Source: a virus
Direction: 5' to 3' (one strand)
IMG/VR virus record: IMGVR_UViG_3300030099_001377
Span: 1 to 28,885 of that record
Length of the DNA: 28,885 nucleotides
Shown: piece after piece, positions 13,843 through 28,885 of the stretch
Position numbering within the stretch: position 1 is the first letter of the stretch
How the letters are laid out: each line of letters starts with the position of its first letter
The notes under the pieces: model-generated
What the model was told of the DNA's origin: nothing
What the model saw: the letters and a program-made list of their open reading frames with translations, nothing else
Databases searched by the model: none
Translations under genes and position numbers: made by a program

Positions 13843-15306
13843 TTAATCTTGGAAGATAAAGAAGTTGTTCGCACCTAAAGTACAAACTGCTCTCTCTGAT
13901 AAGAAGTTGACTTCCATCGCATCTAAGTCAGATGTTCTTGCACCACCGGCTGAACCTGTAATCCAAGTTTTGTAACGTCTGTCTTCAGTTTCAGAAGCTC
14001 TATATCTTACGTGTAAGAAAGGTCTCTTAGCGTTTTTACCAAGGATTTGGTCATACACTGTAGTAGAACCTGCAGGAACTAATAATCCGTTCACTGTTCC
14101 TACTCCTGTTAAACCACCTCTCATTGTTGGGTCGTTTAAGTATTTCCAATCTGACTTATAAAAGTCATAACCTCTTCTAAATCCTGTAAATCCAAGATTT
14201 AACGCCATCTCTGAATCATTGTCGAATAGACCATAAGAAGAACCACCCGCTCCATAAGAGTTTTGAGCAGCTAACATATCGTCAATGTCAAATCCGAAAT
14301 CTCTGTCCACAAAGATTACGTTTTCTTCAATTGAACCTTGCTTGTCTAATCTACTGATAATGTTATCAAAGTCTAATAAAGCGTCAGGGTTTCCACCTGC
14401 CCACACATTACCTCTCTGTTGTACAACGTAGAAGATACCTTCAGAACCTTTATTACCTACTTGGTCAGATACTACTTGAGTAGCAACACCTGAACCTGCT
14501 TCAGCAGGAACTGCTTCAATCATTGCAGTTTCAAGATAGTCGTCAAACCTTAATCTTGTTTCGTGCTCTGATTTAAGATACCATAGGTATCCTGTAGCTC
14601 CGTCTTCTGTAGTAACTTCAATCCATCCAATCTGTGCCATATCTGAACCACTTACCTCATACTTATCTTTAATGATAATTGGTGTGTTTTCAAAAATGAA
14701 ATCGTCAGCTTCTAAAGAACCTTGCATTCCAAGTGTTCCTTTTCTGAATTCTGAACCGTAAATGAAAATAGTAACGTCAGGATTACCTGCGCCTGTACCA
14801 CCTGTATAACCTGCTGCATCATACAATGCAACGTCAAATTGGTTGTTAGCAACGTCTACAGAAACAATAATTCCTTTGAATTCTGCAGTACCGTTATTGT
14901 TGGTTATAACAATAGTTTGTCCAACTCTAACTGCAATCTGTACAGTAGCACCTGAACCCGGTTGAACTGTAGAGTTTACAGGGTTAAGTACGTCATTTAC
15001 TTGTAGCGTAATTTGAGCTGCACCTGCTTGTGCACCACCGACAACACCACAATCTACATATTTAGTGTGTAACCTTCCTTGCTCTGCCCACTTAATGAGG
15101 TCTGAGTTTGAAGGCATCTCTGCTCCTACCATTCTTAAGAATGAGGAGATTGTTCTATTCCCGTATCTTTCGAATTCTTTTTCGTAAGTATCAGGAAGAT
15201 ACTGATTTAAAAAATTAAAATCAGTAATATAATTTGAAGCTAATGGGGTTTGATGCGAACTTGGTTGTAACGCAACACCCGGTATAGCTTGTAATGAACC
15301 TGCCAT
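13843..15306 (-). CDS. Major capsid protein (HK97-fold, crAss-like type), 487 aa
   Basis: The 487-residue length, position after the scaffold-like gene and central place between portal and neck genes fit the major capsid protein. The N-terminal block (NQYLPDTYEKEFERYGNRTI, then SSFLRMVGAEMPSNSDLIKW) resembles capsid proteins of crAss-like and flavobacterial podoviruses as I remember them. The rest alternates beta-rich and Gly-rich segments, with the kind of insertion (about residues 90-190, rich in Val/Thr/Gly) seen as extra surface domains in HK97-type capsids. It starts with ATG at 15306 after an AT-rich leader, 22 nt from the scaffold-like gene. It is likely the most strongly expressed gene here, and a hairpin follows its stop. 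Confidence 0.9.
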   Translation of the reverse strand: MAGSLQAIPGVALQPSSHQTPLASNYITDFNFLNQYLPDTYEKEFERYGNRTISSFLRMVGAEMPSNSDLIKWAEQGRLHTKYVDCGVVGGAQAGAAQITLQVNDVLNPVNSTVQPGSGATVQIAVRVGQTIVITNNNGTAEFKGIIVSVDVANNQFDVALYDAAGYTGGTGAGNPDVTIFIYGSEFRKGTLGMQGSLEADDFIFENTPIIIKDKYEVSGSDMAQIGWIEVTTEDGATGYLWYLKSEHETRLRFDDYLETAMIEAVPAEAGSGVATQVVSDQVGNKGSEGIFYVVQQRGNVWAGGNPDALLDFDNIISRLDKQGSIEENVIFVDRDFGFDIDDMLAAQNSYGAGGSSYGLFDNDSEMALNLGFTGFRRGYDFYKSDWKYLNDPTMRGGLTGVGTVNGLLVPAGSTTVYDQILGKNAKRPFLHVRYRASETEDRRYKTWITGSAGGARTSDLDAMEVNFLSERAVCTLGANNFFIFQD

Positions 15307-16475: not shown

Positions 16476-18911
16476 CTACCTAGGCTCAAACTCTGCTAGG
16501 TCAAATCCATCCAAACTATCCTCATTAGATTCAAATCTTTGAGGTGGTAGATTATTTTTACGTTGATTTATTAATCTCGATTGCTCCGTATTTGCTTGGC
16601 TAATTCTTTGTGATTTAGCGTCTTCTCTCTGCAATTCTCTTTCAGCTAAAGCTTTCTCACTAATATTTCTTAACTGTTGATTATAATTAAACTCTTCAGC
16701 CATTAACTGAGATTTTAATTTTGCTTCATTGTTTTGCTTCTCAATTTCAAAAGCTATCTCAGCTTGCTTCAATTGCATTTTACCCTGTATCTCAGTTTGC
16801 ATTTTTTGCATCTCCATTTGAGATTTCATTTGTTGGGTTTGCATAGCCTGTTGAGCCGCCATTGCTTGCTTTTGCATTTGTAGCCTTTCTTCTCTTTCTT
16901 CTTGAGCTTTACGCTTTACTTTCAATAATTGATTAGCAAGTTTGATATTTTTTATTTCTCTAATGTCAATAGCGTCCTCAAGATTTATATCACCTTTAGA
17001 TAATGCCATTTGAATGTTTTGTTCAAGTTTAGCTTTTTGTTCTTCATCCGGTGCTACCTCTATAAATATGCCAAAGTCATATATGTATAAATCCTTGATT
17101 TGATTTAAAATACTAACATTGTATTTTCCAATGGCATTTGCAAAATCATCTTTGAAATCTGAGTATTCTAGTATATCAGCTACTCTATAAGTTAATGCTT
17201 CAGCCAAAGTTCTGTAGATATATAATGACCCATCTAAAATGTGTCTAGTGGCTACGTTTGAATTTAAAGCTGCAAGTTTTTGTAACCCTACAAGAGAGTT
17301 AGGGTCAGGAGTAGAAGCATCTCTAGCTTCATTCAATCCTGTTACTTGTCTAATCATATTAAGATAATGGTTATAATTAGCAATTAACATTTGTGTTTTA
17401 CTTGCGCCTGAGCTCGATTGTAATTCTTTAATTGGAACTTTTCCTTGATTGAAATCACCATCCTGTGTGTAACTTCTACCAATCACACTACCTGTTTGAA
17501 AATATAATCTCAATGCATCTTCAGGGTTATAAGCATTACCTGTTCCTAAATCCACTTCGTTTAATCCGTCTGCGTCTATATATACACCATCCGGTACAAC
17601 TCTTGAAATAACTTGTTGTAGTTTTAAATGAGTTATCTGTATTAAATCAGCAAAAGGAATCATTCTTCTACATAAAGACTCTATTACTCCTTTATACATT
17701 CTAGGTGCTACCGCTACATAATTTGGTAAAGCGTGTTGTTGAGCCGACTGTGGTCTTACCATATTCTTAGCCAACTCCCATTTTAATATAATATTTGTTC
17801 CCATAACCATCACACCTTCATACCAAACATCGATAGTTTTCTCCATCTTCTCAAACTTACCATCTTCCATCATTTCTTGTGGTGGATTAAATTGGTCGTC
17901 TTTCTCAATAACTTTTGTACCACCGTTTTCTAATTTCTTTTTCTTATAGACCATTTTTTTAGTAGTCTTATAATTAAAGTACATTAAGGTACAAGTGTCT
18001 CTATAAAAAATATCATTTTCATAATACTGAGCAGTGTTAAAATAATTATACCAACTTTGACTGTATTGACTTATTTCTTCTAAATCTTCTCTTGTTAAGC
18101 TTTGGTCTATTTTTAATAGCTCAGTAATTGGTACTGTTTTAATTTCACCCCAATAAAAACAATCTTTAAAATGTGGGTCTTCTGTATAACTATAAACTAT
18201 ATTGGCAGGGTCAACGTATTTTACTTCGACACCCGCCCCTTGCAAAAACTCGTGTTTTGCACAAGCTATTCCTAAAACCGTCAAATCATAGTCTAATCTT
18301 TTTCTAATATCATCGTAATGATTTTCTTCAAATATTGTATTAATTGCTTCTTCTTCTGCTATCTCAATAGCAGGTTTATAATTAAGCTGCATATATAAAT
18401 TGAGTTCTTCATCAGTAGCGGGAAGTTCGTCAGGATTCATAGAGAAGGGGTCTACACCTGTTTTTTTCTGTATAAGCTCAAGCACATCTTTAGCAGCCAT
18501 TTGACCCTCAATCATATCTTGATATTTAGAGCGCTTTGCTGATGACATAGCGTCTTGAGCATAAGCTTTTACCTCAAACATTCTGTCGTTCATACCATTG
18601 ACCACAATATCTACAAACTTGGGAATTATTGGAACAGGTGTCCAATCTAAATTTAAGTAGCTTAAATCTCCATCTACTGCTAATTCATTTTTATATTTAC
18701 CTATTGGTTGTTCACCTCTTGCATATAAACGGAGTCGATAAAAATCTCTCCACTGATTGTAATATCTGCATTGATTTCCATCTTTCTTAAACCATTCGTA
18801 TTGAATTGCTTGTCCAATTTGTAGTCCAAATTCTTCTGTCGCTTTTTCGGCATCAGAAACGAATTGACTTGGAAAACCTACAGATGAAATGTCTATTTTT
18901 ATATCTTTCAT
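16476..18911 (-). CDS. Portal protein, 811 aa
   Basis: The 811-residue length and the position directly after the large terminase gene fit the large portal proteins of crAss-like and similar podoviruses. The N-terminal half contains YKNELAVDGDLSYLNLDWTP and a helical core; the central part has typical portal-like segments (PRMYKGVIESLCRRMIPFAD, then LKLQQVISRVVPDGVYIDAD) followed by a 'TGLNEARDAS' stretch also familiar from portals. From about residue 663 to 790 it is a long Gln/Met/Lys/Glu coiled coil (QAMQTQQMKSQMEMQKMQ), matching the barrel/crown helices that extend into the head. It ends with TAG. Its ATG directly abuts the terminase stop codon. Confidence 0.9.
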   Translation of the reverse strand: MKDIKIDISSVGFPSQFVSDAEKATEEFGLQIGQAIQYEWFKKDGNQCRYYNQWRDFYRLRLYARGEQPIGKYKNELAVDGDLSYLNLDWTPVPIIPKFVDIVVNGMNDRMFEVKAYAQDAMSSAKRSKYQDMIEGQMAAKDVLELIQKKTGVDPFSMNPDELPATDEELNLYMQLNYKPAIEIAEEEAINTIFEENHYDDIRKRLDYDLTVLGIACAKHEFLQGAGVEVKYVDPANIVYSYTEDPHFKDCFYWGEIKTVPITELLKIDQSLTREDLEEISQYSQSWYNYFNTAQYYENDIFYRDTCTLMYFNYKTTKKMVYKKKKLENGGTKVIEKDDQFNPPQEMMEDGKFEKMEKTIDVWYEGVMVMGTNIILKWELAKNMVRPQSAQQHALPNYVAVAPRMYKGVIESLCRRMIPFADLIQITHLKLQQVISRVVPDGVYIDADGLNEVDLGTGNAYNPEDALRLYFQTGSVIGRSYTQDGDFNQGKVPIKELQSSSGASKTQMLIANYNHYLNMIRQVTGLNEARDASTPDPNSLVGLQKLAALNSNVATRHILDGSLYIYRTLAEALTYRVADILEYSDFKDDFANAIGKYNVSILNQIKDLYIYDFGIFIEVAPDEEQKAKLEQNIQMALSKGDINLEDAIDIREIKNIKLANQLLKVKRKAQEEREERLQMQKQAMAAQQAMQTQQMKSQMEMQKMQTEIQGKMQLKQAEIAFEIEKQNNEAKLKSQLMAEEFNYNQQLRNISEKALAERELQREDAKSQRISQANTEQSRLINQRKNNLPPQRFESNEDSLDGFDLAEFEPR

Positions 18912-21074
18912 CTATCTTATTATTTCGCTTAAATTTCCCTTATTATTATACCTTGCAAAGTTAATAATTATATTTGATTGTTTTTTTTCCGGCTGATACT
19001 TGTGTTTTTGAGTTGCCATAATGGCTAACCCTGAGCTTATACTAGCATCAAACCTTGTTCTATTACTTATATCAAACTTTGCCCAATCTTCTAAAGTTCT
19101 GTTAAATGGCATATATCCCATCTCGTCTTCTTTAACTAAACCCACATGAGTTTCTATGTATGACTCTATAGCTGCAGCGTGAGCTTGCTTTACATCTTCA
19201 CTTGAGTTTGGTATACCTCCTAACTCTCGTTCTGTTTTTGATAATCTATTAAATGCTTTGTCGGGTCTATTGATACTAAAACCTCTATAACCTCTATTCT
19301 TAAAATGGTATAATAACCTTGGTTTATTGTTTTCTACCAATATAGGCATACCATAAAAAATACACGCCATTAAAACTTCTTCAAAGAATATCTCAGCAGT
19401 CTGTGGTCTTGCCACATACTCTAAGAAAAACTGATTACTTGGCGCATCGTCTACATTAAACTTAGTTAAGCCGTGCAATGCTCCATTAGATGCACCACCA
19501 CCCACAGTCCCTGAAATATCATATGAGTCGCATCCAAATGCACCAATGTGCTCATTAGCCGGATACTTAGTCCCTTTTTTATTTACAATTCTATTTTGCA
19601 AATGTTTTGGTGGAAGCCAACTCACTTTAAACCTACCTCTTAAATCAGGCCTCCAAACTACTTCAGAATCTACGACTCCTCCTTTCCAATAAAAGCTGCC
19701 TTGAGTAATATGATGTTCTTGAATTAAAGAATCATTATAATCTATTTGTTGATATAGTTTGTTTAAATTAAAAAGTGCTTGTTTGCTTTCATCTCTAAAT
19801 GCGTGAGACTCAGTTCTAGGAAATTGTCTATAGAATTCGTTTAATGCGTCAGGGTCGTTTTTTAAAGACTCCACTTCTGCTTCCCAATATTCAACTACAT
19901 CTTCAATAGGCATTCCATATTTATCTATGTAACCTTCAAAGTTCCACTCCATAGGAATAAACAAACTGTATAACCCTGATTTAGTTTGTCCATTTTTGCT
20001 TCGGTTGTGGGGATTAGAATCATTAAATAATTTTTTAAATTCTTTACCTCCTTTGTTCAATGCATTAGATGTAGAACCCATCATACATTTTCCGATAATT
20101 CTACTACCCAATCGCAAACAAGTTTTAGTTACACGCCAATTATTTAAAATATTATTTGGTTTCAACCATTTTCCACTTTCATCGTGAACTAGTAATAAAA
20201 GCTTTTCACCATCATATGAGTTGTCATCTGTGTTCTTCCAATCTATTGTTGTGTCTAGCCCATACAACTCTTCGTCAGCAATATCATACATATTTTTCTT
20301 TGTAATTTTTGCAGCAGGAATTCTAAATGCAAGTTCTGTTTTTGGTTTATCCATTCCATCTTGAATAGGTTTAAAGAAAAATGGTAGTCGATTAGAAATA
20401 GGTACAACCTTATCGGTAAACATTTTTTTAGCATCCGAACCTGTTTTTGAAAGTATACCGACTCTTGAGTCTTTAGCTAATGTACCTGTGTTTACACACT
20501 CGGAAGAGCCCATATATGAAAAACCTGAACGTCTTATTTTTAAATAAATCATTCCAAAACATCTATGGTCAGCCCTACAAGCTTCCCAATAAATATAAAA
20601 AATTCTGTTAGCTTCTCTAAACTCAGGATAACCAACATCAATGGATGTCCATTGAAGATACATATAATGAGCTCCGGTAATATAGGTTGGAACTTTATCA
20701 TTAACAAACCAATAACCTAACTCTCTTTTATCGAACTCATCTTCTATAAAATCCACCCACCTTGATTTAAAACTATCAGGCATTGTATTCCATTGAAATA
20801 TGGAGTTTATTTGGCTAAGTGGTTTTGGTAATTGTTTTCTTTCCCAATAATCTTTGTCTCTTTGAAGAGACTTTGGAGCTTTCGGTAAAGCTATTAATAA
20901 TCCATTTACTTCTATTACCTGTTCAATCTGCCCTGTTTTAGAAATAACTACTAAGTCATATTTTTCATTGTAGCCATACAACCAACTTCTATTTCTATTT
21001 TTATTTGAAATAACGTTTTTAGGTATAGCGTTCTCTATAACTCTATATAGTTTATTTAGACCTTCTCTCTGCAA
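18912..21074 (-). CDS. terL: Terminase large subunit, 720 aa
   Basis: The DNA-packaging motor, with an N-terminal ATPase and a C-terminal RNase H-like nuclease. The ATPase has a Walker A-like segment at 178-190 (LKIRRSGFSYMGS) that lacks the canonical GKT/S, a Walker B/catalytic motif at 296-302 (VHDESGK) and a coupling motif GSTSNA at 333-338. Nuclease residues are expected at D516 (GCDSYD), E581 (PILVENNK) and D677 (RFDASIS). The region 556-582 (RPQTAEIFFEEVL, then PILVENNK) is typical of crAss-like/Bacteroidota phage terminases. The only good start is TTG at 21074, inside the end of the upstream 93-residue gene (23-bp overlap). The next Met is near residue 98, too far inside the conserved part. 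Confidence 0.92.
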   Translation of the reverse strand: MQREGLNKLYRVIENAIPKNVISNKNRNRSWLYGYNEKYDLVVISKTGQIEQVIEVNGLLIALPKAPKSLQRDKDYWERKQLPKPLSQINSIFQWNTMPDSFKSRWVDFIEDEFDKRELGYWFVNDKVPTYITGAHYMYLQWTSIDVGYPEFREANRIFYIYWEACRADHRCFGMIYLKIRRSGFSYMGSSECVNTGTLAKDSRVGILSKTGSDAKKMFTDKVVPISNRLPFFFKPIQDGMDKPKTELAFRIPAAKITKKNMYDIADEELYGLDTTIDWKNTDDNSYDGEKLLLLVHDESGKWLKPNNILNNWRVTKTCLRLGSRIIGKCMMGSTSNALNKGGKEFKKLFNDSNPHNRSKNGQTKSGLYSLFIPMEWNFEGYIDKYGMPIEDVVEYWEAEVESLKNDPDALNEFYRQFPRTESHAFRDESKQALFNLNKLYQQIDYNDSLIQEHHITQGSFYWKGGVVDSEVVWRPDLRGRFKVSWLPPKHLQNRIVNKKGTKYPANEHIGAFGCDSYDISGTVGGGASNGALHGLTKFNVDDAPSNQFFLEYVARPQTAEIFFEEVLMACIFYGMPILVENNKPRLLYHFKNRGYRGFSINRPDKAFNRLSKTERELGGIPNSSEDVKQAHAAAIESYIETHVGLVKEDEMGYMPFNRTLEDWAKFDISNRTRFDASISSGLAIMATQKHKYQPEKKQSNIIINFARYNNKGNLSEIIR

Positions 21075-21333
21075 ATCCTTGTTTTGTATCTATTTTACTT
21101 GGCCCTTTTTCTTCGGCATCAATTATATTTTTCTCCGCTTCTATTCTAGCTAATATATCAAATGCATCCATAATGCAAAGTTTTTTTGTGGCTGCTGCAT
21201 TTTTTAATCTGTCTGCTGCTAACTCATCTTCAGGGTCAGGCTTTATAATATCTTCTTTTGCAACTTTAATTAATTGTTCTACGGCTCTCATTCCGGCCTG
21301 TATAATATTTTTTTTTAAAGTTTTTGAGTCCAT
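21052..21333 (-). CDS. Putative terminase small subunit, 93 aa
   Basis: A small, highly charged, all-helical protein (MDSKTLKKNIIQAGMRAVEQ, later DAFDILARIEAEKN) ending in a basic tail. It overlaps the start of the large terminase gene by 23 bp. Small helical proteins in this place commonly act as small terminase subunits that recognise packaging DNA. I see no clear helix-turn-helix, so the assignment rests on position, size and coupling. It starts with ATG at 21333 after an AT-rich leader. Confidence 0.75.
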   Translation of the reverse strand: MDSKTLKKNIIQAGMRAVEQLIKVAKEDIIKPDPEDELAADRLKNAAATKKLCIMDAFDILARIEAEKNIIDAEEKGPSKIDTKQGFAERRSK

Positions 21334-21334
21334 A

Positions 21335-21898
21335 TTATAATTTAATTGTTATTTGGTGGTCATACATTCTGTATAGTTTTTCACCCTCTATTTCAAACTC
21401 ATACTCAGTATCGGGTTTAAAACAAACTTTATCTCCTTCGTTAACATCTTTAGACCTAAGATAATCATTGCTATATTTTATTTCACCCATTAATGGTTCT
21501 TCACTAAATGGTTTATAAATATACGAATCTTCTACCGGAATTGGTTTAGTAAAACAATATCTACCGTGTGTGTTCCATTTTTCTCCGTTATGAAACATAT
21601 AAAATTGGTCAGGCTCAATAAAAAACAAATCGTCTTTGAAATAACTTCTACCGCTTTTTCTTCTCCCATACATATCGTTATAAAACTTAAACACATTATG
21701 ATGTACAACTAAAGTGTCACCCACCTTAACAGGCCCTGTATATTTGATGGGTGTAGATATTACTGTGGCAAATCTGTTGGATGCTTTATGGTTTTCTTCT
21801 GAAGTATTGACAATAAAATCTATGCCACCAATTTTTTTAGTGTTATTATATCTTTTACCATCTATGGCTTTTGCAATAAATAAATAAGGAGATTTCAA
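21335..21898 (-). CDS. Tandem GroES-like (co-chaperonin-like) protein, 187 aa
   Basis: Two GroES-type halves can be read. Half 1 (about 4-102) has a mobile-loop-like segment NTKKIGGIDFIVN at 19-31, then GPVKVGDTLVVHHN around 55-68 (GroES: VKvGDxVlf) and YFKDDLFFIEPDQFY near 86-100 (GroES: y.i..eddIla). Half 2 (about 113-187) repeats the pattern: FTKPIPVED, GEIKYSND, VNEGDKVCFKP at 152-162, and a terminal LYRMYDHQITI. Half 2 has no obvious mobile loop. The protein would help host GroEL fold phage capsid or tail proteins, as T4 gp31 does. The start is TTG at 21898, overlapping the TGA of the preceding gene (TTGA). Co-transcribed with terminase and portal. Fold call is good; the tandem interpretation is inference. 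Confidence 0.75.
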   Translation of the reverse strand: MKSPYLFIAKAIDGKRYNNTKKIGGIDFIVNTSEENHKASNRFATVISTPIKYTGPVKVGDTLVVHHNVFKFYNDMYGRRKSGRSYFKDDLFFIEPDQFYMFHNGEKWNTHGRYCFTKPIPVEDSYIYKPFSEEPLMGEIKYSNDYLRSKDVNEGDKVCFKPDTEYEFEIEGEKLYRMYDHQITIKL

Positions 21899-22125
21899 AA
21901 ATTTATATTATATTCTATTGACACAGGCATATCAGTAAACTCTTTCCATAGCACAACCTCATCTTTATTATTAGATGCTATCCATATTTTAAAAGAATCC
22001 ATTGATGTATCATATTTTATAAGATGAATATGATGCGTTCCATTTAGAACGTCTTGTCCTACTATGTAGTGCATTGCTCCTGATTTATAGTCAGGACCGA
22101 CTGCAATTTTTCTTATGTCGTTCAT
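21895..22125 (-). CDS. Small phage protein of unknown function, 76 aa
   Basis: A 76-residue beta-rich protein containing KIAVGPDYKSGAMHYIVGQD and ending with PVSIEYNINF. The pattern is familiar to me from Bacteroidota phage genomes, where it is also upstream of terminase genes, but I know no function. There are no signal peptide, membrane segment or catalytic motif. It overlaps the GroES-like gene by 4 bp and follows the 156-residue gene after 6 nt, so it is in the same operon. Confidence 0.75.
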   Translation of the reverse strand: MNDIRKIAVGPDYKSGAMHYIVGQDVLNGTHHIHLIKYDTSMDSFKIWIASNNKDEVVLWKEFTDMPVSIEYNINF

Positions 22126-25970: not shown

Positions 25971-28885
25971 TTAAGGTGTGCAATTAGTAAAGTTAGGTTT
26001 TGGGTCTGTCCAAGAAGGAGTATTATCAAATACACCTGTACAGAATTGTACTCCTGTTACATTCCAAGAGCTTAAATCTTGATTGAATGAAGAAGCACCT
26101 TTAAACATATTTATCATATTAAATCCTGAAGATGTGTCCCAACCCGATATATCAATATCGAAGTTAGTTGCATTCTCAAACATCCTATGGAATTGTGATA
26201 CGTGTCCTACGCTCCACGTGCTTATGTCTCCATTAAATGCAGTTGCATCTCTAAACATTCGTGCAATTGTTCCATTTGATACATCCCAATTATTTAAATT
26301 TTGATTGAATACCGTAGCTCCATCAAACATTTCTTGGAATTGATTTCCTGTACTTGTATTCCAACTATTCAGAGGTTGATTAAATGAACTAGCACCTTGA
26401 AACATACGTTGGAACTGTGTAACATTGCTTACATCCCAATTGTCTATTTGACCATTAAAAGCAGTTGCACCATTGAACATATCAGATATACCTTCAAGAC
26501 TCGCAGTATTCCAAGAGTTTAAATTTTGATTAAAAGCAGTATTATCTTCAAACATACCGAACGCATCTTCTAAACTTGAAACATCCCAAGCATCTATGCT
26601 TTGGTTAAATCCCATATCGTAGAACATCTCAGCCATATTCAGAACATTGCCTGTGTTCCAATTATTTAAAGGTTGATTAAATGAAGTAGCTTCTCTAAAC
26701 ATTCGATACATAGTATCTACATTAGATGTGTCCCAATTATTTAAATTTTGATTGAAAGCAGTTGCTTTATAGAACATACGTCCCATTTTAATTGCACTAC
26801 TTGTATCCCAACCACTTATGTCTTGGTTAAATGCTATTGCAAACTCAAACAAGCTAAAAAAGTTATCTACATTAGATACATCCCAATTACCAATATCTTG
26901 ATTGAATATTGAGCAACTATCGAACATATTTGCCATATTAGTAACACTTGACGTGTCCCAATTACTAATGTCACCATTGAACGTATTTCTAAGTTGGAAA
27001 GCATCTTCCATAGTAGTCACTTGTGAAGTATCCCAATTTTGAATTTTACCATAAGGTACAAGGTTAAAGTCACCATTAGGGTCTTGTGCTAGAATATCGT
27101 TAATTGCAGTTTGGAATGTAGCATCTGTTAATGGAGTACCGGGTACAGGGCCTCCATCTATTATAGCACCTAAGTCTAATATTAATTGATTTCTAGCCGA
27201 AACTACATTTGTTAGGTTTGGGTCAAATTGACTGTTACCAAAATTAAAATAGTTAGTTCCTCCTGATGACCAAAAGCTACAATTAGCTGCTCTTGAATAA
27301 TTTCCTAAAGCTGAAAAGTTTACTAATACATCATTATATATAGAAGTGTCTAGTGTAGGGTCACTAGGTAAGGGGTGTGGAGGGAAGTTAGGACCCATTA
27401 ACCCGTTCATTCCACCTACTCCTGTTAAATCCCAATTACTAATATCTTGATTGAATGACGTTGCACCTCTTAACATAAATATCATTTGTGATGAATTACA
27501 ACTACCCACTGCTAATCCTGAAAAATCCCAATTTGTAATATCCCCATTGAATACCGTATTGCCTTCAAACAAAAACGAAAAATTTTTACATTGACTTACA
27601 TCCCAATTATTTAGGTCTCCATTAAACTGAGTCTGCCTAAAGACATTGCTTAAATTATATAACTCACCCGGAAAAGGAGTGGCGTTTCCGATACCCCATC
27701 CATTCAATCCTTGTGGATTTCCTCCGTTGTCAAAACTAGTGCAACCATCAAACAGTGAAGCTAAGTTAAACGCATTATCCATATTCCAAGCAGTGTCTGT
27801 AAACTCCTTATAGTTCCCTGACCTACCTGAATTATAAACCGCTTTACGAGTTACAGTTTTTGTACTACAATCACTATTAAAATTAGTGCAACCTGAAAAC
27901 AACGTAAACATCATACCTAGGTTATCAGTATTCCACTTAGACACATCACCCTGAAAATCCGTATCGTCAAACATTGCCGTCATTCTTTCCATATTAGGCG
28001 TATACCAATTTTCAACGTTTCCATTAAAGGTATCACAGAATCTAAACAGACCCTCAAATCTTACTAAAGTTCTCAAATCCCAATCGTTTAATCTAGCTAT
28101 ATTTTGGTCTTTAGGTAAACCTAAATTAAAACTTCTACTAAAACCCCAATTGATTTGTGGGCTTCGAACTATATTTCCTACTATCATAGGAGTATCAGGG
28201 GCATTTATAGGCCCTAGATTAATACATTCATACCAATATCTTGTCGCATTAAAACCTGCATTTGGAGAGCCACTAGGGACACCAAACACCATATCCCCCC
28301 ACTGTTTTATTTCTATTAATTTAGTAGAGCCTATCGTTTTTGCATTTGTTTGATTAGCGGTAAAACTCCAACCTTCTATTCCTCTTCCATTAGGAGTGAT
28401 AATCACATCATATGTTCCCGGAGTAGCATATACATGCATAGGAACATCTGCAGGAAAATTAACAGGGTTAGTATTGTAAACATCTGTAGTCCCATCTCCC
28501 CAATTAACAGTAATATCTAAATTAAAATTAGGAGTTTCGGTATATGTTATTGGTGCAAATGGTAAACGTATAACGTTGGGTGCATTTATAGGAGAAGGAA
28601 GTCCTTGAGTAAGAGTAGTATCAAATGTTACAATCATATCTAATTCAGGAGTGACTAGTTGAACTGCAGCAGTTTGAGCTACACACTTTCCATTATAAGC
28701 TATGATTCCATAATAGTATGTTGTACCGGGTGTTAATCCTGTGAAGATGGTAGATTGAGGTGTGTTGTTTATAACAGGATAAGAAAAAGGAACTTGAGGA
28801 TTAGAGATTAAGTTAGGACTTGTTCCAAACGCAAACTGACAATACGTTCCATTTGTACCATCTATAGTGAATCCTTTATCATCAA
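25971..28885 (-). CDS. Large fibre/adhesin-like protein with FN3-like, PKD-like and BspA/DUF285 repeats (5' end outside window)
   Basis: The frame stays open from the right edge to TAA at 25971, at least 970 residues. The Met at 28637 is internal: the 82 codons before it encode an FN3-like end (FTGLTPGTTYYYGIIAYNG) in the same frame. Next comes a PKD-like domain (VNWGDGTTDVYN, then HVYATPGTYDVII). Two arrays of 25-residue BspA-type leucine-rich/DUF285 repeats follow (NWDTSSVTNMANMF, FNQDISGWDTS), separated by a linker with a typical capping motif (YGKIQNWDTSQVTTMEDAF). BspA-type repeats bind host or surface partners in bacteria; here they would suit a receptor-binding fibre. No signal peptide is visible, but the N-terminus is outside the window. 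An attached bacterial adhesin gene is less likely given the phage context. Confidence 0.85.
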   Translation of the reverse strand, partial: DDKGFTIDGTNGTYCQFAFGTSPNLISNPQVPFSYPVINNTPQSTIFTGLTPGTTYYYGIIAYNGKCVAQTAAVQLVTPELDMIVTFDTTLTQGLPSPINAPNVIRLPFAPITYTETPNFNLDITVNWGDGTTDVYNTNPVNFPADVPMHVYATPGTYDVIITPNGRGIEGWSFTANQTNAKTIGSTKLIEIKQWGDMVFGVPSGSPNAGFNATRYWYECINLGPINAPDTPMIVGNIVRSPQINWGFSRSFNLGLPKDQNIARLNDWDLRTLVRFEGLFRFCDTFNGNVENWYTPNMERMTAMFDDTDFQGDVSKWNTDNLGMMFTLFSGCTNFNSDCSTKTVTRKAVYNSGRSGNYKEFTDTAWNMDNAFNLASLFDGCTSFDNGGNPQGLNGWGIGNATPFPGELYNLSNVFRQTQFNGDLNNWDVSQCKNFSFLFEGNTVFNGDITNWDFSGLAVGSCNSSQMIFMLRGATSFNQDISNWDLTGVGGMNGLMGPNFPPHPLPSDPTLDTSIYNDVLVNFSALGNYSRAANCSFWSSGGTNYFNFGNSQFDPNLTNVVSARNQLILDLGAIIDGGPVPGTPLTDATFQTAINDILAQDPNGDFNLVPYGKIQNWDTSQVTTMEDAFQLRNTFNGDISNWDTSSVTNMANMFDSCSIFNQDIGNWDVSNVDNFFSLFEFAIAFNQDISGWDTSSAIKMGRMFYKATAFNQNLNNWDTSNVDTMYRMFREATSFNQPLNNWNTGNVLNMAEMFYDMGFNQSIDAWDVSSLEDAFGMFEDNTAFNQNLNSWNTASLEGISDMFNGATAFNGQIDNWDVSNVTQFQRMFQGASSFNQPLNSWNTSTGNQFQEMFDGATVFNQNLNNWDVSNGTIARMFRDATAFNGDISTWSVGHVSQFHRMFENATNFDIDISGWDTSSGFNMINMFKGASSFNQDLSSWNVTGVQFCTGVFDNTPSWTDPKPNFTNCTP
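26010..27060 (-). repeat. BspA/DUF285 repeat array 2, about 14 units of 25 codons
   Basis: The C-terminal array has about 14 copies with consensus W-[DN]-x-S-x-x-x-x-[MF]-x-x-M-F-x-x-A-x-x-F-N-Q. Units start at roughly 75-bp intervals, and short strings such as catcccaattatttaaat recur at DNA level. The copies are similar but not identical. The array begins after a cap segment with YGKIQNWDTS and ends near the C-terminus with a Cys-containing tail (FCTGVFDNTPSW). Confidence 0.85.
27390..28110 (-). repeat. BspA/DUF285 repeat array 1, about 7 degenerate units
   Basis: An upstream array of about 7 more degenerate units (LNDWDLRTLVR, VENWYTPNMER, VSKWNTDNLGM, LNGWGIGNATP, LNNWDVSQCKN, ITNWDFSGLAV, ISNWDLTGVGG). 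It contains insertions of variable length between units, unlike array 2, and lies directly after the PKD-like domain. Confidence 0.7.

Follow-up and report, generated by a model that had tools for sequence, protein, structure and literature searches.

A tandem GroES-like protein encoded beside the terminase in phages of flavobacteria

The window analyzed here, a virus record of 28,885 bases that represents an incomplete genome, encodes a protein of 187 amino acids that structure models identify, with little room for doubt, as two consecutive GroES-like domains arranged head to tail. GroES rings cap GroEL via mobile loops. The explanation we favor, with a probability of roughly 0.6, is that the protein is a tandem co-chaperonin acting as a lid on GroEL for virion proteins, a mixed ring of seven domains being the likeliest form of that lid. 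The protein family is known and partly annotated; its tandem architecture appears to be new as far as the literature found goes, our literature search having recovered no description of a tandem GroES in phages.

The closest named phages to the window infect flavobacteria, and one window protein matches the crAssvirus muzzle domain. A sequence-only reading had pointed to a frame with two sets of GroES-like motifs, and both sets are present on the minus strand at the position given in Table 1: IGGIDFIV at residues 23-30, VKVGD at 57-61, and VNEGDKV at 152-158. The TTG start codon overlaps the TGA stop of the 76-amino-acid gene directly upstream.

Table 1. The tandem GroES gene, its predicted domains and loops, and neighboring genes (positions in the window)
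Feature	Position	Strand	Details
Tandem GroES protein	21335..21898	-	187 aa, TTG start; phrog_13932 E 2.9e-18
N-terminal GroES-like domain (predicted)	21581..21898	-	residues 1-106; AlphaFold2 alone pLDDT 88.4
C-terminal GroES-like domain (predicted)	21335..21580	-	residues 107-187 and stop; profile, Pfam, VIA
Mobile-loop-like segment, N-domain	21776..21847	-	residues 18-41, NNTKKIGGIDFIVNTSEENHKASN; aligned to GroES loop
Shortened loop, C-domain	21488..21538	-	residues 121-137, PVEDSYIYKPFSEEPLM; pLDDT 57 over 121-130
76-aa companion ORF, directly upstream, overlaps tandem start	21895..22125	-	present in 185/185 loci with room
93-aa ORF between tandem and TerL, candidate small terminase piece	21052..21333	-	TerL-extension alignment
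Terminase large subunit (TerL)	18912..21074	-	phrog_6681 E 9.7e-167
Portal protein	16476..18911	-	phrog_6547 E 7.8e-136
Virion structural protein in major-capsid position	13843..15306	-	487 aa; phrog_13704 E 1.4e-99

Predicted fold of the two halves

An AlphaFold2 model of the full-length protein, built from a 61-sequence alignment, reached a pLDDT of 84 and a pTM of 0.77. Confidence is lowest at residues 121-130 (57) and 31-40 (68), where the loops of the C-half and the N-half lie, and residues 31-40 are the least confident stretch of the N-half whether it is modeled within the full-length protein or alone. Foldseek and VIA-align agree on the top PDB match, which spans the full length of the model: chain R of 7ekq (Foldseek E 6.7e-6; VIA Z 11.1 with 161 residues aligned and an rmsd of 4.3), named "Cpn20 co-chaperonin subunit" in an entry that also contains a chain named "Chaperonin 11". 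The other strong matches of the full model, to GroES, Cpn10, and gp31, cover residues 101-187 only. Because one domain alone can fill a match list, the N-half was also folded separately, and the first 16 VIA entries for it are all GroES, Cpn10, gp31, or Cpn20 (Z 5.1-7.5), with GroES-like domains of alcohol dehydrogenases below them; the top Z of 7.5 lies in the range where a mere shared arrangement is possible, and every top row is a co-chaperonin. VIA matches of the C-half to GroES have Z scores of 7-9. Although these Z values are moderate, the consistency of the matches, taken together with the full-length match to Cpn20, makes a GroES fold of both halves the clear reading. The earlier proposal of two GroES-like halves in a Cpn20-like tandem therefore stands, since each half matches GroES first when modeled, and structure prediction gave the GroES fold for both halves rather than for one or neither.

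Profile comparison with GroES, which had also been suggested as a check, is clear for the C-half and weak for the N-half. With the C-half profile, GroES chains are recovered from the PDB at E 1.1e-5, and the best Pfam Cpn10 E-value among 33 C-halves is 3e-8. N-half profiles gave no significant GroES match in Pfam or the PDB, and their direct comparison with a GroES profile yielded a 61% hhalign probability. Against Pfam Cpn10 (PF00166), the window protein itself scores 14.3 bits, under the cut-off of 21.1, which is passed by C-halves from Calle, L118, and the phi13:2 group, at 24-34 bits. When the profiles of the two halves were compared with each other, the probability was 2.3%, and because they do not match beyond the GD motif, an internal duplication is not demonstrable from sequence.

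The phage family

The match of the window protein to phrog_13932, "co-chaperonin GroES", spans residues 1-179, and all 61 aligned family members match this profile; an NCBIfam search of the window protein returned no match. Identity to the window protein is 61% for MW202828, 37% for the Flavobacterium elemo phages, 32% for Maribacter phage Panino, and 28% for Cellulophaga Calle/phi38:1. L118 links the elemo, Panino, Calle/phi38:1, and phi13:2 groups directly over the full length; MW202828 is not linked in this way. At least 592 stretches in IMG/VR encode a family member. The fetched loci encode proteins of 180-200 amino acids, with no three-domain or longer versions among them. BFVD lists a viral protein of 304 amino acids (A0A516L046) that aligns along its length with the tandem model and may hold extra domains. 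Members of phrog_13932 from Cellulophaga phages, elemo, and Panino belong to the same family over the full length and occupy the same place before TerL, but they are annotated only as co-chaperonin GroES/cpn10 or as hypothetical, and the distribution of loops between their halves depends on the clade.

We also looked for a bacterial or prophage origin. The 10 matches to genome contigs all fall in metagenome bins of mixed taxonomy, labeled Aliivibrio, Nitrosomonadaceae, Pseudomonadales, and others, and probably represent free phage contigs that were misassigned during binning.

The packaging operon

The tandem gene is followed by the 93-amino-acid ORF, TerL, the portal gene, a gene for a 363-amino-acid protein, and the structural protein of 487 amino acids in the capsid position, whose counterpart at the homologous position in Calle_1 is annotated as the major capsid protein. 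PHROG matches for terminase, portal, and structural protein (Table 1) confirm the suspected location of the gene ahead of packaging and capsid genes. The tandem gene is syntenic with TerL in every one of the 190 loci with room for both, a count that includes contig duplicates. Its position next to the terminase, portal, and capsid genes suggests that the protein is expressed late and acts on virion proteins, and the conservation of the place in the packaging operon makes capsid folding like that assisted by T4 gp31 plausible.

The 93-amino-acid ORF is helical. In elemo, Panino, and Calle, the sequence that aligns with it is an N-terminal extension of TerL; MW202828, phi13:2, and, by position, Gundel_1 have a separate ORF of 94-103 amino acids there. 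The ORF is likely a small terminase, split or fused depending on the phage. We considered the tandem protein itself as the small terminase and rejected this assignment, as the 93-amino-acid ORF or the TerL N-terminal extension fits that place better. The 76-amino-acid companion ORF has neither a Pfam match over the cut-off nor a PHROG match; it shows a pattern R-K-I ... MHY, and its product is possibly a partner of the co-chaperonin. Elsewhere in the window, an 888-amino-acid protein (25971-28637, minus strand) contains many repeats of the type WDxSxVxxMxxMFxxxxxFN, resembling BspA/DUF285, and is a possible adhesion protein; the elemo tail region also encodes a DUF285 protein.

Mobile loops in the two halves

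The window protein retains a mobile loop of GroES type, IGGIDFI, in its N-half, where GGIDF places a hydrophobic tripeptide after glycine. Within the N-loop segment, 50 of 61 members contain the pattern G[ILVM]x[ILVFM], versus 7% of shuffled segments, a count that is not to be read as a probability since the members are related. The N-half motif is GGIDF in the window clade, GLIL in elemo, GGVEF in Panino, and GLEL in phi13:2. In Calle, the motif is absent from the N-half, and the C-half has NGLRVI.

The C-half loop is 21 residues long in the window clade (19-21 residues across the window and elemo clades together) and carries no motif in either of these clades, whereas it has the full length of 29-30 residues in Callevirus/Calle, Pachyviridae/phi13:2, and L118. 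The sequence-only reading had described the second half as having no mobile loop, which is right for the window clade. To judge from these sequences, clades seem to differ in how many usable loops each chain carries.

Co-occurrence with single-domain GroES and GroEL

Among the 40 records of related phages that we examined, 20 are of at least 55 kb, or 18 once two that repeat a phage across collections are discounted. All 20 contain a separate single-domain GroES over the Pfam cut-off, and 14 contain GroEL. Records under 55 kb often have neither GroES nor GroEL, as expected of fragments, and the window, itself a fragment, holds no second GroES and no GroEL. The genomes of phi13:2, phi18:3, phi19:3, phi46:3, and L118 contain both single and tandem GroES and no GroEL; these phages presumably rely on the GroEL of the host. 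The tandem gene is present in 85 of 87 named phage records with a related TerL. One of the two records without it is the complete genome of Tenacibaculum phage Gundel_1, which has a related terminase and in which no tandem gene, GroES, or GroEL was found. The pattern of the three genes in complete relatives, combined with their absence from Gundel_1, suggests that they form one pathway in which the two GroES types appear as a constant pair, although the data on co-occurrence come from roughly five groups of related phages, and shared descent may account for part of the pattern. The gene for the single GroES sits in a different operon from the tandem gene, beside GroEL where GroEL is present, and because of this location gene order does not imply co-assembly. 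The single-domain GroES of related phages lacks the roof-loop stretch of E. coli GroES, and a lid built with it may have an open top.

Comparison with known co-chaperonins

The predicted protein shares with GroES/Cpn10 a beta-barrel in both halves, a mobile-loop motif, the GD motif, and a C-terminal strand, and differs in having two domains per chain and in falling below the Pfam threshold. Like T4 gp31, it is a phage protein with a co-chaperonin fold (1g31, Z 6.6 for the N-half and 7.5 for the C-half) and a likely role in virion protein folding; unlike single-domain gp31, it is a tandem, and its relatives carry a single GroES as well. Cpn20 of chloroplasts and apicoplasts (Cpn20/Cpn23) also consists of two head-to-tail GroES domains, over both of which the model aligns, and is also accompanied by a single-domain co-chaperonin, as the tandem is in the related phages. 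The phage tandem differs from Cpn20 in being phage-encoded, in having no transit peptide, and in its low sequence identity (14%). Both domains of plastid Cpn20 have retained their mobile and roof loops (PMC3542282), whereas in the window clade the C-half loop is shortened and lacks the motif.

Possible roles of the tandem protein

That the tandem works as a co-chaperonin with a GroEL we consider quite probable. Late in infection, it would shut virion proteins inside GroEL, whether that of the phage or that of the host. The likeliest client, guessed from gene position, would be the capsid protein of about 53 kDa, which would fit the GroEL cage; the portal protein, at about 92 kDa, would not.

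Cpn10 and plastid Cpn20 form functional hetero-oligomers of seven domains (PMC4242682, PMC5780408, PMC3542282), and the separate single-domain GroES of the relatives would allow a similar seven-domain mixed ring, simpler than one of tandems alone. By analogy, the lid could consist of three tandem molecules and one single GroES, as in chloroplast Cpn10/20. Binding to GroEL reportedly takes no fewer than four functional loops out of seven (PMC4242682), and by arithmetic and this analogy a 3+1 ring in the window clade would present four active loops, the reported minimum. We put forward such a mixed ring only tentatively. A stricter version, in which phages arrived independently at the chloroplast solution, with an obligate lid of three tandems and one single, a loopless second domain, exactly four alternating loops on the seven-fold GroEL, and an asymmetric cage for the capsid protein, strikes us as doubtful.

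Alternatively, the tandem could cap GroEL alone as a trimer of six domains or a tetramer of eight, with the single GroES serving different clients or acting at a different time in infection. Homo-oligomers of plastid Cpn20 are functional with GroEL (PMC3542282), GroES concatamers of six or eight domains function (PMC5780408), and the placement of the two GroES genes in different operons is consistent with separate roles. A tandem-only ring with one loop per two domains, as first envisaged, is conceivable. With one loop per molecule, however, a trimer would offer three loops and a tetramer four, which is below or just at the reported minimum (PMC4242682), and the constant pairing of the two GroES types in the large records, together with the absence of both from Gundel_1, also argues against it. 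We consider a solo cap unlikely.

A former co-chaperonin might instead have become an assembly or packaging factor, acting on portal, terminase, or procapsid and no longer working with GroEL. The fixed position beside TerL in all loci would suit such a factor, as would the loss of the C-loop in the window and elemo clades, the presence of another GroES in the genomes, and a conserved HHN motif at residues 66-68 that is unexpected for GroES. Against it, the N-half still has a GroES-type loop in the window, elemo, Panino, and phi13:2 groups, as does the C-half in Calle, and Gundel_1, the sole complete genome examined without GroES and GroEL, is also without the tandem, which fits a shared pathway; we regard this reading as improbable.

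Far less credible still is a role at a host protease such as ClpP, as a cap or a block. The best structural match of the tandem is a chain of 7EKQ, the Chlamydomonas Cpn11/20/23 complex, described as a heterotetramer of CPN11/20/23 that sits on the chloroplast Clp core (PMC8889267), but that match reflects the common tandem GroES fold, and nothing in the sequence or neighborhood points to ClpP.

Significance

So far, most known tandem co-chaperonins come from chloroplasts and related plastids, and they have been studied as a peculiarity of these organelles; their fit onto seven-fold GroEL has been debated. With a co-chaperonin lid on GroEL as the preferred reading, this family of phages, whose hosts are aquatic flavobacteria, would offer a small genetic system that combines a tandem with a single GroES and sometimes the phage's own GroEL. 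Natural variation within the family, which places a loop in the first half, the second, or both, makes it possible to test how the ring is composed and how many loops it requires. The finding also suggests that some large virion proteins require a lid of special geometry, and that the story of gp31 reaches beyond T4.
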